A DNA stretch of 64,000 bases, from positions 806,001-870,000 of the forward strand of contig NC_009616.1 of assembly GCF_000016905.1 (NCBI RefSeq), in the 5' to 3' direction. Below, piece after piece: positions 12,634 through 17,626 of this stretch. Positions within the stretch are counted from its first letter, which is position 1; every line of letters begins with the position of its first letter. A model generated the notes under the pieces. It was not told the DNA's origin. It saw nothing but the letters and a program-made list of their open reading frames with translations, and ran no database searches. Source of the stretch: Thermosipho melanesiensis BI429 (lineage in GTDB: Bacteria; Thermotogota; Thermotogae; Thermotogales; Fervidobacteriaceae). The position numbers were made by a program, and so were the translations under genes.

Positions 12634-12930
12634 TCAAAATCCATCACTTACTAAAGTTATATTGTATATGGATTCAAAATCTTCTATAGTACTATTAATA
12701 TGTGTTTGATTATCTGCAAAAAGCTCAGTTTTTGGTTTGTCAAAATTCAATAGGAAAAGTGAAGAAACAACACCAATACTTAACACTAAGATCAAAACTT
12801 TTCCAAGATTTGATATCTTTTTTCTTTTTTGAATAATCTTAATTACCTTTTCTTCTAATATCTCTCCTGGTTTATAACAGGTTGTATGTTTTAAAGCATT
12901 CAAAATTTTTTCGTACTTTTCATCAGTCAT
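12634..12930 (-). CDS. Small single-pass membrane protein, probable anti-sigma factor
   Basis: The protein has 98 residues, with about 40 charged cytoplasmic residues, one transmembrane helix (LGKVLILVLSIGVVSSLFLLNF) and a short outside tail of 30 residues. The start overlaps the ECF sigma stop by 4 bp (ATGA), the usual arrangement for an anti-sigma factor. The N-terminal part has a single Cys (TTCYKPG) and lacks the HxxxCxxC zinc motif of ZAS-type anti-sigma factors. Identity is inferred from position, size and topology and is not based on sequence similarity. Confidence 0.6.
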   Translation of the reverse strand: MTDEKYEKILNALKHTTCYKPGEILEEKVIKIIQKRKKISNLGKVLILVLSIGVVSSLFLLNFDKPKTELFADNQTHINSTIEDFESIYNITLVSDGF

Positions 12931-13517
12931 ACTATACCTTCCTCCTTAAGTATCTTTTGGAATAATTTTCTTGCATTGTGAAGTCTACTTTTTACAGTGC
13001 CCTCTGGAATATTTAAAATATCAGCTATTTCCTGGTAGGACAGCTCATCGATATCCCTAAGTTTTATTAAAACTCTATCTCTTTCTGGCAACTTCTCTAG
13101 TGCTTTATTTATTTTTTCATATAATATCTCTGATTCCACTTCTTTTTGTACATCTGTCTCTTTGTCCGGAATATCCACTTCTATATCTTCTGTATCATCT
13201 GTTTCCACACTAAATACCTTTTCGTTTTTCTTTTTGTATTTTTCATAATATGTATTACAGACATTCATAGTTATCCTATATATCCAAGTAGATAAAGAAG
13301 AATTTCCCTTAAATTTTTTAATCCCTTTAAATACCCTAAACATAACCTCTTGAACTATATCATCTACATCGTCAGTTCCAAAATAAGTCTTTGCAAAAGA
13401 ACCAATTTTCGGTGCAAAATCTCTATATAGCCTCCTATAAGCCCACTCATCACCTTTTTTGAGGGCTTTTATAAACTTTTTTTCGTTTTTCCAACTAATT
13501 TGACCATCTTCATTCAT
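12927..13517 (-). CDS. ECF-type RNA polymerase sigma factor
   Basis: The protein has about 196 residues and a clear two-domain ECF sigma. Region 2 contains DVDDIVQEVMFRVFKGIKKFKGNSSLSTWIYRITMNVC, read across residues 50-90. Region 4 contains LPERDRVLIKLRDIDELSYQEIADIL, then a helix-turn-helix ending GTVKSRLHNARK. ECF factors direct RNA polymerase to stress or envelope promoters. ATG 13517 was chosen because it follows the DUF72 stop by 1 bp; TTG and GTG codons further upstream lie inside DUF72 without a better SD. The next gene, a membrane protein, overlaps its stop. The target promoters cannot be read from the window. Confidence 0.9.
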   Translation of the reverse strand: MNEDGQISWKNEKKFIKALKKGDEWAYRRLYRDFAPKIGSFAKTYFGTDDVDDIVQEVMFRVFKGIKKFKGNSSLSTWIYRITMNVCNTYYEKYKKKNEKVFSVETDDTEDIEVDIPDKETDVQKEVESEILYEKINKALEKLPERDRVLIKLRDIDELSYQEIADILNIPEGTVKSRLHNARKLFQKILKEEGIV

Positions 13518-13518
13518 T

Positions 13519-14271
13519 TTATGTTCTAAAGAGCTCAAGTTCTTCACCACCAATTATCTTTCTAAATTCAAGTGCATTAAGTAGTGCGTATCCGTTGTAG
13601 CAATTGTTAAAATATATATATTTTTCTCCTTTAAATTCTTTTATCTCATTGTATATAGTTAAAAGTTCTTCCCTTTTATACTTGTAATTATACCTTGTCT
13701 TAGCATTTGATTCAAACCATTTTGTGTTTCTTCCATGAAGTCGGACGTATAACCTTTTATTTGCATTCATTTGAAAAGGATAAAAATCTTTTAGTTTTGG
13801 TTGATCTATTGTTATTATTTCAAAATCATCTGTTTTGAAGTCTTTCCATGAAACATGTCTAAATTCAACAAATAGATTGTTTATCTTTTTAGAAAGTTTA
13901 TACAAAAACATTTCGTTATCTTTATTTCTTTTAAATGAAAATGGAAATTGAGCAAGATACCCAACAAGTCTTTTTTCTTTTTCAATTTCCTTTGTTGCTT
14001 TTAGAAAATTTTCTACGTAATCTATTTCCCTTTCATGGGTTATGCCACCAAACAATTTGACGGAAAAAAGAAAATTGTTGGGGGTATTTCTAAGAAGCGA
14101 TACTATACTCTTATACGATGGCATTCGGTAGAATGTGTAGTTAAGTTCAACTGTGTTGAACCGGTATTTCCAAACATAGAACCTTAACATATTACTTTTC
14201 TTTATATTGTTTGGATAAACCTTTCCTATCCAATCGTCAAATTGAAAACCACTTGTTCCAATGTAGGTCAT
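13519..14271 (-). CDS. DUF72 (YecE-like) TIM-barrel protein
   Basis: This 250-residue protein has the DUF72 signatures: YIGTSGFQFDDWIG at the N-terminus, FNTVELNYTFYRMPS, FLFSVKLFGGITH and VRLHGRN, with a YIYFNNCYNGYALLNA ending. Members adopt a TIM barrel like AP-endonuclease folds; the function is unknown, with a suspected role in DNA or nucleotide metabolism. It overlaps the uvrD stop by 4 bp and directly precedes the ECF sigma gene. Co-transcription with uvrD fits a repair role but proves nothing. Confidence 0.85.
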   Translation of the reverse strand: MTYIGTSGFQFDDWIGKVYPNNIKKSNMLRFYVWKYRFNTVELNYTFYRMPSYKSIVSLLRNTPNNFLFSVKLFGGITHEREIDYVENFLKATKEIEKEKRLVGYLAQFPFSFKRNKDNEMFLYKLSKKINNLFVEFRHVSWKDFKTDDFEIITIDQPKLKDFYPFQMNANKRLYVRLHGRNTKWFESNAKTRYNYKYKREELLTIYNEIKEFKGEKYIYFNNCYNGYALLNALEFRKIIGGEELELFRT

Positions 14272-16160
14272 TTTTCAACACCATACTCAAGATGTTCTAC
14301 TAGATGGAAAGGAATATCATCAATAAAACTTTTTCCTCGTCTTAATATATAATCATTTCCGTAAAATATTCTTGATGAACCTCCCACACTGTGTATTATG
14401 TACAAATAATCTTTAGCCCTTGTAATAGCTACATAAAAAAGCCTTTCTTCTTCATCTAGGTTGTTTTCTCTAAAGCTCATAATATGTGGAAAATCGCCAG
14501 GATTAACACTTAGTATGAATACCACTTTCCATTCTAACCCTTTTGCCTGATGAACAGTTGTAAGTGTTACTTTTTCCTTTTCAGAGTTTTCGCTTTCTAT
14601 TTCGTAGCTTTCACTTACCAGTATATCATTTAAGAATAATTCTGGTATTTTGTAAAATGTTGCCATCTCTATTAATCTTTCGATATCCTCTTTTCTTTCT
14701 CTATAATCTTCAAATTTTTCTTCCATCTTTTTGTTGTAAAAGTTTATGTAAAAGAGTTTTATCCTTTCGCCTGGGTTTTGTATATCAATTGCTTCTTTTA
14801 TTGTGTCTCTTAATATGTGGAAATCTTTGCTTTTTTCCTTTATCTCATTGAATGCGTCATATCCATGTTTTGATAGTTTTTCGGCATAATTTTCTGCCTT
14901 TATATTTCCAATTCCAGTTGCGAGTTTTAATATTCTTATCCAAGAGATTTTTTCTTCAAAATTTACCGTTGTCTTTAGAAATGCAAGACAATCCTTTACG
15001 TGCGCTGTTTCGGTAAAACGTAATCCAGAATAGAGTTTGAATGGGATGTTGTGTTTTGAAAGTGCTAATTGTAGTTCGAGGGAATGGGCATGTGCTCGAT
15101 ACAGGACAGCTATTTCATTTAAGGATATACCGTTGTGTTGGAAGTTTAGTATTTCATTTGCTACAAAGTCTGCTTCATCGTAGTGATCAAAGACTTGAAC
15201 AAGAAATGGCTTTATTCCCGTTGTTCTTGTTGCTTTAAGTTTCTTTTTTATTGACTTTTTGGGGAGCATTTCATTTATAAAATTAACTATTTCTTGTGAG
15301 CTTCTATAGTTTGTTTGTATTTTAAACGTAGTAGCTTCTTTTTGAAAATCTATTACATTTTCAAAACGAGCTCCCCTAAAGGAATAAATACTTTGTGCAT
15401 CATCTCCTACTACCATTAGGTTTTTGTGTACTGTGGATAAAAGTTCTACGATTTTGAATTGTACAATGTTTGTGTCTTGAAATTCATCTACCAGTATCCA
15501 TTTGTATTTTTCCGATTCTTTTAGTCTTATTGCTTTGTTAGTTGACAATATTTGTAATGTGTGTATCAGTAGATCATCGTAATCAACGGCATTTTGATTT
15601 TGTTTTTCTTGTTGGTACCTGACCAATATTTGTTCTATTGTATGTTCTTGTTCTAAATATCTTGGGTTGTATTTTACAATTGCTTCTCTAAGGGATGTAA
15701 GTGTATTGTTCATGTATGAAGCGATGGAAAGTAGTTGTTTTGCCGTTGGGATAGTTTTTCTTTCTGATTTTGGTATGAGTTGGCTTCTTGTGCTTTCCAT
15801 AAGATCTTTTGCATCTTCGCTGTCCAGTATGGTAAAATTTGATTTTAATCCTATTAGTCTACCATATCGCCTTAAGAATAAGTTACATACATGGTGAAAG
15901 GTACCTGCTGTTATTCCGTTTAGATTTGATTTTGAGACTACTTTTGCGCGTTGAAGCATTTCCCTTGCTGCGGCTTTTGTGAATGTTACGAGCATTATTT
16001 CGTTTGGTTTTATTCCAGAATCTATTAGATGTGCTATCTTGTAAGTTATTACCCTTGTTTTTCCGCTTCCTGGACCTGCAATTACAAGTGTTTTCCCGCT
16101 TGATTCTACAACCGCTTTATATTGTTCTTCATCAAGTTTGAGCTTTAAGTCTTCTATCAT
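14268..16160 (-). CDS. UvrD/PcrA-type superfamily 1 DNA helicase
   Basis: This 630-residue protein has the SF1A motifs in order: AGPGSGKTRVITYK (Walker A), TAGTFHHVC, VDEFQDTN (Walker B), VVGDDAQSIYSFRGA, QTNYRSSQEIV, TTVHQAKGLEWKVVFIL and YVAITRAKDYLYI. These enzymes translocate 3'-5' on single-stranded DNA in nucleotide excision and mismatch repair. It is slightly shorter than typical PcrA (about 720). It is the first gene of the eleven-gene minus-strand run that ends with mutL, so two repair genes bracket the unit. Its promoter must lie in the structured 373-bp gap upstream. Confidence 0.92.
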   Translation of the reverse strand: MIEDLKLKLDEEQYKAVVESSGKTLVIAGPGSGKTRVITYKIAHLIDSGIKPNEIMLVTFTKAAAREMLQRAKVVSKSNLNGITAGTFHHVCNLFLRRYGRLIGLKSNFTILDSEDAKDLMESTRSQLIPKSERKTIPTAKQLLSIASYMNNTLTSLREAIVKYNPRYLEQEHTIEQILVRYQQEKQNQNAVDYDDLLIHTLQILSTNKAIRLKESEKYKWILVDEFQDTNIVQFKIVELLSTVHKNLMVVGDDAQSIYSFRGARFENVIDFQKEATTFKIQTNYRSSQEIVNFINEMLPKKSIKKKLKATRTTGIKPFLVQVFDHYDEADFVANEILNFQHNGISLNEIAVLYRAHAHSLELQLALSKHNIPFKLYSGLRFTETAHVKDCLAFLKTTVNFEEKISWIRILKLATGIGNIKAENYAEKLSKHGYDAFNEIKEKSKDFHILRDTIKEAIDIQNPGERIKLFYINFYNKKMEEKFEDYRERKEDIERLIEMATFYKIPELFLNDILVSESYEIESENSEKEKVTLTTVHQAKGLEWKVVFILSVNPGDFPHIMSFRENNLDEEERLFYVAITRAKDYLYIIHSVGGSSRIFYGNDYILRRGKSFIDDIPFHLVEHLEYGVEK

Positions 16161-16298
16161 AGTTTCATCCTTTCTTTTTTAATATTTCTAATAGTAATAA
16201 TAATATGAGGTTTAAAAGTGGAAAGTTGTGAGTTTAGATATTTGGTAAAGTCCTTTGAATATTTAATTTTTTTGCTTTCCATTTTTTTAACTGATAAC

Positions 16299-16315
16299 TA
16301 ACCAGGAGTTGGTTA
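16299..16315. repeat. Short inverted repeat
   Basis: TAACCA at 16299-16304 pairs with TGGTTA at 16310-16315 around the 5-nt loop GGAGT. No T-run follows on either strand, so it is not a plain terminator. Confidence 0.5.
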
Positions 16316-16350
16316 TATGTGTAAAAGATATTTAAAGTAGCTATTTTTTG

Positions 16351-16364
16351 TGGAAAGTTTTCCA
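16351..16364. promoter_or_regulatory. TGGAAA palindrome, operator candidate
   Basis: TGGAAAGTTTTCCA is an inverted repeat with arms TGGAAA and TTTCCA. It contains the same TGGAA-N4-TTCCA core seen near the amylopullulanase promoter and resembles the site near cinA. Confidence 0.4.
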
Positions 16365-16410
16365 AAAAGCCTTTTAAAATGGGATATTTTTAAATTTATT
16401 GTTTTTTTCA

Positions 16411-16451
16411 TGGTAAGAAACATAGTGTTTTGGAAAGCAAAATTCTTACCA
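16411..16451. repeat. Nine-bp inverted repeat
   Basis: TGGTAAGAA at 16411-16419 and TTCTTACCA at 16443-16451 are perfect complements, separated by 23 nt that contain another TGGAAAG. It could fold in RNA or bind a dimeric protein. Confidence 0.55.
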
Positions 16452-16464
16452 CGTGGTTAGAAAT

Positions 16465-16507
16465 CAATATATAGTACTAATATATTTCCAAAGTACAATA
16501 TATAGTA
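16465..16507. repeat. Twelve-bp direct repeat
   Basis: CAATATATAGTA occurs at 16465-16476 and 16496-16507, 31 bp apart start to start, about three helical turns. The phasing is compatible with protein binding on one DNA face. Confidence 0.5.
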
Positions 16508-16533
16508 TGGTAACTTTCCAATAAACTTTCCAA

Positions 16534-16974
16534 TTAAAGTAATATTACATTTTTTTCCAAATACGCCTTTGCAAGTGTGAGCATTTGTCCCCAACCAAAT
16601 GCACAACCATACCTTATGTCTATTTCATCTAGTGTTTTTATCAACGTATGATCTATAATGCTTATCCAAGTTCCACCTTCTATATTTTCCTGAAATTTCA
16701 TTGTAACCTTTGATCGAAATCCATCTTCGTATTCATACCACCAAAATTCCCATAGTTTATATGGTATTATTTCCACGGTATATCCTTTGTCAGTTACTAC
16801 TTCCTTTGTTAACCTTTCCCATCTAAAAAATATTTCTCCACCATCCTTTAGTTCCATTTTCATACCATCTGTAAACCATGGATCCCATCCATTTTTATTT
16901 ACAAACGTATTCCATACTTTTTTCAAAGGTGCATCTATGTACTCTATAAATTTCATAGGTGTTAGTTTTAACAT
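16534..16974 (-). CDS. SRPBCC (AHSA1/START-like) domain protein
   Basis: The protein has about 146 residues. FIEYIDAPLKKVWNTFVNKNGWDPWFTDGMKMELKDGG near the N-terminus and WEFWWYEYEDGFRSKVTMKF in the middle match the helix-grip fold of AHSA1-like SRPBCC proteins, which bind hydrophobic ligands. The ligand is unknown. ATG 16974 follows the SD AAAGGGG; an upstream in-frame start would overlap the membrane protein gene. It is the last gene of the cinA-lacI operon. Pairing with a LacI regulator and an Mpv17-like membrane protein is unusual and gives no clear function. Confidence 0.75.
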   Translation of the reverse strand: MLKLTPMKFIEYIDAPLKKVWNTFVNKNGWDPWFTDGMKMELKDGGEIFFRWERLTKEVVTDKGYTVEIIPYKLWEFWWYEYEDGFRSKVTMKFQENIEGGTWISIIDHTLIKTLDEIDIRYGCAFGWGQMLTLAKAYLEKNVILL

Positions 16975-16978
16975 TATT

Positions 16979-17626
16979 TTACCCCTTTCTAATTGATAAA
17001 AGAATTCCAAGGGCTATTGAAAGCATAGCAGCTGTAAGTACTCTATATTGAGATGGCAGAAGAAAAGTAAATGTATGAGCAGGTATCCAAAAAAATGGAA
17101 TGGTTTTTAACACGACAAATCCTACGTATTTGTTCCAATCAATGGTATTTACAACATCGGATAGCTTAATAGAAAGTATTTTTGAAATTTTCCCATCTCC
17201 CAGGTCTATAAATGTATCTGTTATCCTATGAAAAGCCATAAAAGTAGGTGCAAAAATAAGGTTCATAAGTATACTGGTAAAAAATGCGTGGACAAACTTA
17301 CCGTTCCCTGGAAGAAGATCTTTTTCCATTACCACATATGTGCCACTTGCAAATAATTCAAATACGAGTACAAAACACATTCCGAGAAATCCCCAAACAA
17401 TAAATCTATATACTATTCCTTTTGGAATGATATATCTTCTCTTTTGAAGTCTAATGGATAAAATTTCACCCATGGTTGCAAGTACAGAAACCTTTAAAAA
17501 CCCCATTAGATATGGATGTGTTTTATTTAATGATATGTAGATATCATGTGTGGGTTTAAATATAAGTAAAAATACAATAAAAAGAAATGTTGATATCCAT
17601 ATTATGTCTCCTTTTTTCATTTTCAT
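16979..17626 (-). CDS. Mpv17/PMP22-like integral membrane protein
   Basis: This 215-residue protein has four to five hydrophobic helices. The C-terminal helix pair (FFWIPAHTFTFLLPSQYRVLTAAML) parallels the Mpv17/PMP22 signature, where a Pro-Phe-x-x-x-x-Phe run is followed by a P-x-x-x-R-V motif. The upstream HAFFTSILMNLIFAPTFMAFHRI matches the paired helix. Mpv17 proteins are best known from mitochondria and peroxisomes; bacterial members are few and uncharacterised. The call is by pattern only. It begins 6 bp after the lacI stop, so the two are co-transcribed. Confidence 0.55.
   Translation of the reverse strand: MKMKKGDIIWISTFLFIVFLLIFKPTHDIYISLNKTHPYLMGFLKVSVLATMGEILSIRLQKRRYIIPKGIVYRFIVWGFLGMCFVLVFELFASGTYVVMEKDLLPGNGKFVHAFFTSILMNLIFAPTFMAFHRITDTFIDLGDGKISKILSIKLSDVVNTIDWNKYVGFVVLKTIPFFWIPAHTFTFLLPSQYRVLTAAMLSIALGILLSIRKG

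Follow-up and report, generated by a model that had tools for sequence, protein, structure and literature searches.

The chromosomal origin of Thermotoga maritima (tma-oriC) has been described as a TAG-repeat or DnaA-trio unwinding element with a box 1, an inverted box 2 and more boxes, ten in total (PMC10316083), and the BUS module of B. subtilis-type origins combines a DnaA box, a spacer and trinucleotide repeats (PMC8287927). NrdR operators at ribonucleotide reductase (RNR) genes are built from a pair of palindromes that share a core and are separated by about three helical turns (PMC9110341, PMC12051234); NrdR requires both boxes, with a spacer of 14–17 or 24–27 bp (PMC12051234), and the form that binds is a tetramer loaded with dATP and ATP (PMC9110341). 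Work in E. coli has dealt with DnaA and NrdR at nrd promoters (PMC2500167).

The way in which bacteria coordinate replication initiation with dNTP supply is an open question. Origins with transcription-factor sites among the DnaA boxes exist, for example those of CtrA in Caulobacter, and we know of no action of NrdR on replication initiation. Raised dNTPs are reported to delay initiation in Caulobacter by an undefined mechanism (PMC12186491). Searches of openly available papers turned up no earlier account of NrdR sites at an origin, although this origin or these sites may have been noticed before, and the T. maritima origin paper mentions no NrdR site (PMC10316083).

The locus considered here is an intergenic gap at positions 16161–16533 (genome 822.16–822.53 kb) of a 64,000-bp window, the whole stretch of DNA analysed, which covers bases 806001–870000 of the single 1,915,238-bp contig of Thermosipho melanesiensis BI429. 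Like tma-oriC, the gap has a TAG/trio unwinding element, a G-rich spacer, a box 1 at about +29, an inverted box 2 and a noncanonical DnaA box, with dnaA elsewhere, but the box is TGGTAGGT in tma-oriC and TGGWAAG here, and the neighbours are YceD and LUD genes there and helicase and AHSA1 genes here. The elements of the BUS module recur in the same relative orientation, whereas the gap has a divergent DnaA box, a longer array and boxes in both orientations. As in RNR-gene NrdR operators, two same-core palindromes lie about three helical turns apart; unlike those operators, the pair lies in a predicted origin, not in front of an RNR gene, and a putative DnaA box occupies its spacer. Regulator sites inside oriC are a likeness to the CtrA origin of Caulobacter, from which the gap differs in that NrdR is a dATP/ATP sensor.

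A predicted replication origin and its DnaA-type boxes

The motifs of the gap are genuine and far above chance expectation. A preliminary description of the gap had listed at least six TGGAAAG sites on both strands, and exactly six are present (16219+, 16275−, 16351+, 16431+, 16514− and 16526−), together with the 9-bp inverted repeat (TGGTAAGAA/TTCTTACCA, 16411–16419/16443–16451), the TAACCA/TGGTTA hairpin (about 16299–16315) and the 12-bp direct repeat three turns apart (CAATATATAGTA at 16465 and 16496, offset 31 bp) that it had named. Its TGGAAAG cluster stands, but TGGTAAG had not been pooled into the same box family and the 31-bp direct repeat had been left unidentified. Pooled as TGGWAAG, 8 sites fall within 366 bp. 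This is an excess over chance: when the gap was dinucleotide-shuffled 5000 times, the sites numbered 0.12 on average and never more than 2. The runner-up cluster in the approximately 856 kb of genome sampled holds 4. The statement that no gene explains the gap is borne out in that no long open reading frame (ORF) crosses it; the short ORFs, all that is present, led us to reject a coding gene.

This gap is almost certainly the chromosomal replication origin (oriC), judging from a strand-composition switch, the densest box cluster in the sampled genome, a DnaA-trio unwinding element adjoining a DnaA box, and homology to tma-oriC and to the origins of relatives. As raw GC skew was too gene-driven for origin placement, it was replaced by GC skew at four-fold sites, calculated separately for the genes of each strand, which changes from negative on the left side of the gap to positive on the right. 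A two-breakpoint fit (687 genes) placed this switch at 819 kb, with 820–821 kb trailing by 1.9 log units, and the opposite switch near 1.66–1.68 Mb; the best breakpoint outside 780–880 kb was 129 log units worse. A break placed at 822 kb scores approximately 11 log units under the maximum, the optimum being displaced to the left of the gap by one or two genes, because the helicase gene beside the gap and its neighbour show right-side skew, which we take as single-gene noise. The strand-corrected skew switches within approximately 3 kb of the gap, and dnaA lies at the contig start, about 820 kb away.

Homology to the T. maritima boxes points to TGGWAAG as the DnaA box of this genome. The AT-rich unwinding element (16180–16210, + strand) contains a DnaA-trio-like TAG-TAA-TAA-TAA (16192–16205) and GAGG (16207–16210) on the same strand, following the trio/eTrio definition of PMC10316083; its TAGTAGTAATAATA is conserved in relatives, and the T. 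maritima origin has the same element. Putative DnaA box 1 (TGGAAAGTT, 16219–16227, +) lies 27 bp from the trio start, compared with +27 to +31 in the closest origins and T. maritima, and is followed by a putative inverted box 2 (TGGAAAGCA, 16273–16281, −), whose T. maritima counterpart is at +92. Further candidate DnaA boxes, assigned by TGGAAAG match and origin comparison, are TGGAAAGTT at 16351–16359 (+) and 16524–16532 (−) and TGGAAAGCA at 16431–16439 (+), and another TGGAAAGTT at 16512–16520 (−) is kept in relatives. Both arms of the inverted repeat are DnaA-type boxes of the form TGGTAAGAA, the left one (16411–16419, +) invariant in 8 genomes and the right one (16443–16451, −) conserved in relatives, and a variant DnaA-type box, TGGTTAGAA (16454–16462, +), stands where relatives have TGGTAAGAA. 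The distal repeat was also considered as a second trio element and rejected because trinucleotide periodicity is absent.

The gap is flanked on the left by a UvrD/Rep-type helicase gene (14268–16160, −), which starts at the origin edge, and on the right by an AHSA1/SRPBCC-type gene (16534–17010, −), which has its 3′ end toward the origin. Elsewhere in the window (12634–13553), a sigma-70-family-like gene precedes a short ORF for a membrane-anchored product, resembling an extracytoplasmic sigma factor and its regulator as far as the translations can be read.

Conservation in relatives extends to both elements and spacing. Three further genomes of the genus and four of the sister genus share TAGTAGTAATAATA and then G-rich bases, with TGGAAAGTT 27–31 bp further along, as well as TGGTAAGAAA...TTTCTTACC, the palindrome in double copy and the distal TTTCCAA. 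The trio/box signature located origins in approximately 30 genomes of three families, including a genome (G031) whose origin reads TATTATTAGTAGTAGTAAATAATAGGGGACGCAGGTGGTAGGTTT and matches the published T. maritima description; we infer from this origin that the genome is T. maritima. The 31 origins used for the pair scan below include many close relatives and represent eight genera; no origins were located for genera g2, g8, g9, g11, g12 and g14, and the set lies within a single order. The DnaA box is TGGTAGGTT in Thermotoga, TGGAAAGTT with TGGTAAGAA in the host, and TGGTAAGTT, TGGTAAATT or TGGTAGATT in genera that appear Fervidobacterium- and Pseudothermotoga-like. The recognition helix of DnaA domain IV reads SHSSVVQN in the host genus and most of sister genus g4, and SHPTV or SHPVV in most others. 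A strict pairing of the SHSSVVQN helix with the TGGAAAG box was rejected, as genus g5 has a near-identical helix yet TGGTTAG/TGGTAAG boxes. This graded series of origins, together with the diverged DnaA box, allows initiator and box to be set side by side.

Tandem NrdR-type palindromes in the gap and across the order

The 31-bp direct repeat matches a tandem NrdR operator with the core ACWAYATRTWGT. Palindrome 1 (TCAATATATAGT, 16464–16475) has one deviation from the core and palindrome 2 (ACAATATATAGT, 16495–16506), 31 bp from it, is exact; a DnaA-type box with a TTTCCA core (16482–16490, −) lies between them. This 12-bp core, which we take to equal the NrdR box acaCwAtATaTwGtgt of Rodionov and Gelfand (2005), has only four occurrences in the genome. 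One is in the gap, two form a pair with 32-bp spacing in the promoter of the anaerobic RNR gene nrdD, and the fourth is in the interior of a transporter-like ORF. The nrdD promoter pair is near-identical to the gap pair. Measured between 16-mers, the spacer in the gap is 15 bp, within the 14–17 bp range and with the boxes on one helix face; across the order it is 13–15 bp, the 29-bp spacing of family f2 leaving a 13-bp spacer that is just outside the tested 14–17 bp optimum. NrdR itself is encoded in 44 of 45 genomes, and RegPrecise, as quoted in PMC4493059, places nrdD, nrdG and nrdJ of eight Thermotogae under predicted NrdR control.

Given the palindromic core, the two-box spacing, the recurrence of the pair at RNR promoters and the nrdR genes encoded, the gap palindromes are very likely NrdR sites. 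They do not lie upstream of an RNR or other dNTP gene, the neighbours being helicase and AHSA1-type genes, and for this reason we use the term NrdR-type operator inside oriC rather than RNR operator. The earlier suggestion of a multi-site regulatory region or binding array was apt in kind, given a predicted DnaA-box array and NrdR-type tandem operator, but missed the replication origin. The nrdD promoter with its tandem NrdR boxes (locus L175, G000:C1 near 647 kb) adjoins the beginning of a 16S rRNA gene in back-to-back orientation.

When 45 genomes of the order were scanned for core pairs at a spacing of exactly 31 bp, allowing up to 2 mismatches, 25 places were returned, comprising 14 origins and 11 RNR promoters (nrdJ, nrdG-nrdD or nrdD), and the reversed-pattern control returned one. 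Three of these 11 RNR genes were confirmed by Pfam, one nrdG-type activase matched Fer4_12 and the rest were assigned by reading translations. A matrix trained on the RNR promoters found a pair of at least 13 bits in 28 of the 31 origins, located +267 to +403 relative to the trios, and no pair of at least 10 bits in 197,105 flanking positions; the matrix is partly dependent because its training sites came from the same pattern, their identity as RNR promoters being independent. Matrix pair scores in the sampled host genome were 40.4 for nrdD, 22.8 for oriC and 12.4 for the next. The three origins without the pair all belong to one Pseudothermotoga-like genus and have one exact and one degenerate core. 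T. maritima carries the tandem palindromes in tma-oriC, at +378/+409, and also at nrdJ, 30 bp apart.

A DnaA box is placed between two NrdR boxes in two of the three families: of the 23 f1 and f2 origins, 22 have a DnaA-box core in the stretch separating the palindromes, in one orientation and 1–4 bp from the second palindrome, against approximately 3 expected from random placement of the spacer in the origin. In the genus Thermotoga the same nesting is seen in 1 of 7 origins.

Several individual loci have features of their own. Two Fervidobacterium-like origins (L215 and L216) apparently have two pairs, near +297/+327 and +391/+422 or +403/+434. The nrdG-nrdD operator spacer of a g3 genome (L242, approximately 1501–1543) holds a DnaA-box-like TTTTACCAC, which recalls DnaA control of nrdAB in E. 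coli. In two f9 genomes of another order-level lineage (L274 and L276, approximately 1501), a pair is flanked by deoxynucleoside-kinase-like genes on one side and a hydrolase-like gene on the other, according to their translations; such pairs would widen the NrdR regulon to dNTP salvage.

Alternative readings and a possible role in initiation

That the gap is an oriC with a tandem NrdR operator inside it seems to us highly probable. That the gap serves the helicase gene as a regulatory region or leader RNA, with no origin involved, would fit its position directly upstream of the helicase start codon and a folding energy somewhat better than that of shuffles, but it is hard to credit given the skew switch at the gap, the recurrence of the layout in origins with very different neighbours, including the experimentally studied tma-oriC, the lack of an Rfam match and a covariation term of −0.17. 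Neither an Rfam match nor covarying helices were found at the gap, and an RNA gene or leader was rejected on that ground; the untranslated RNA of the preliminary description is not supported, since the predicted conserved helices correspond to inverted protein-binding sites and their covariation term is close to zero. It is also improbable that the palindromes of an oriC are bound by another conserved factor, such as a nucleoid protein. The palindrome is AT-rich and its assignment to NrdR comes from sequence, yet all 11 non-origin pair places in the order are RNR promoters, tandem boxes at about three-turn spacing are the known NrdR operator, and NrdR is predicted for Thermotogae RNR genes by RegPrecise.

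We consider it unlikely, though less so than the two preceding readings, that NrdR boxes within an oriC control only a promoter there, for a neighbour or for transcription through the origin, without acting directly on DnaA. NrdR is known as a transcriptional repressor; the right gene is co-directional and downstream of the boxes in f2, f3 and g3, and in g1, g4 and g5 the left helicase gene is downstream. Against this, the regulated gene would have to differ in identity and side from group to group, no neighbour is a dNTP gene, and promoter-like matches in the gap are no commoner than in shuffles. Genes flanking the origins are, by group, helicase and AHSA1, Mut7-C and a small protein, YceD and LUD, or CBS and a MinD-like or glutamine-synthetase-like gene, and the convergent neighbour is the right one in g1, g4 and g5 and the left one in g3. 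A shared neighbouring promoter does not account for the pair because the flanks differ and the convergent neighbour is on opposite sides.

We lean towards a direct action of the NrdR pair on initiation, and, with slightly less assurance, towards the fuller proposal that NrdR, as a dATP sensor, directly regulates initiation in Thermotogales through a conserved oriC operator that is astride a DnaA box in most lineages. DnaA would occupy the TGGWAAG boxes and, nucleating at box 1, would form an oligomer that opens the DnaA-trio element (16192–16205), the tandem operator sitting in the distal half of the predicted origin. At high dATP, an NrdR tetramer with dATP and ATP would bind both palindromes, as at RNR promoters, and would cover the DnaA box nested between them or compete with it. 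DnaA assembly in the distal half would then be modulated, and probably hindered because NrdR would span a DnaA box. Surplus dATP would in this way both repress RNR synthesis and restrain new initiation, coupling initiation to dNTP supply. A brake is a tentative choice of sign, favoured only slightly over the opposite, in which NrdR would license initiation when dNTPs are ample.

An RNR-repressor-type operator that is kept in the origins of a whole order while both neighbour genes are exchanged offers a concrete, testable link, and, if the proposal is true, a single protein governs dNTP synthesis and replication initiation alike. In vitro, opening of the minimal 149-bp tma-oriC (PMC10316083) involves a segment that stops short of the palindrome pair, and a regulatory rather than a core role would therefore fit the pair.
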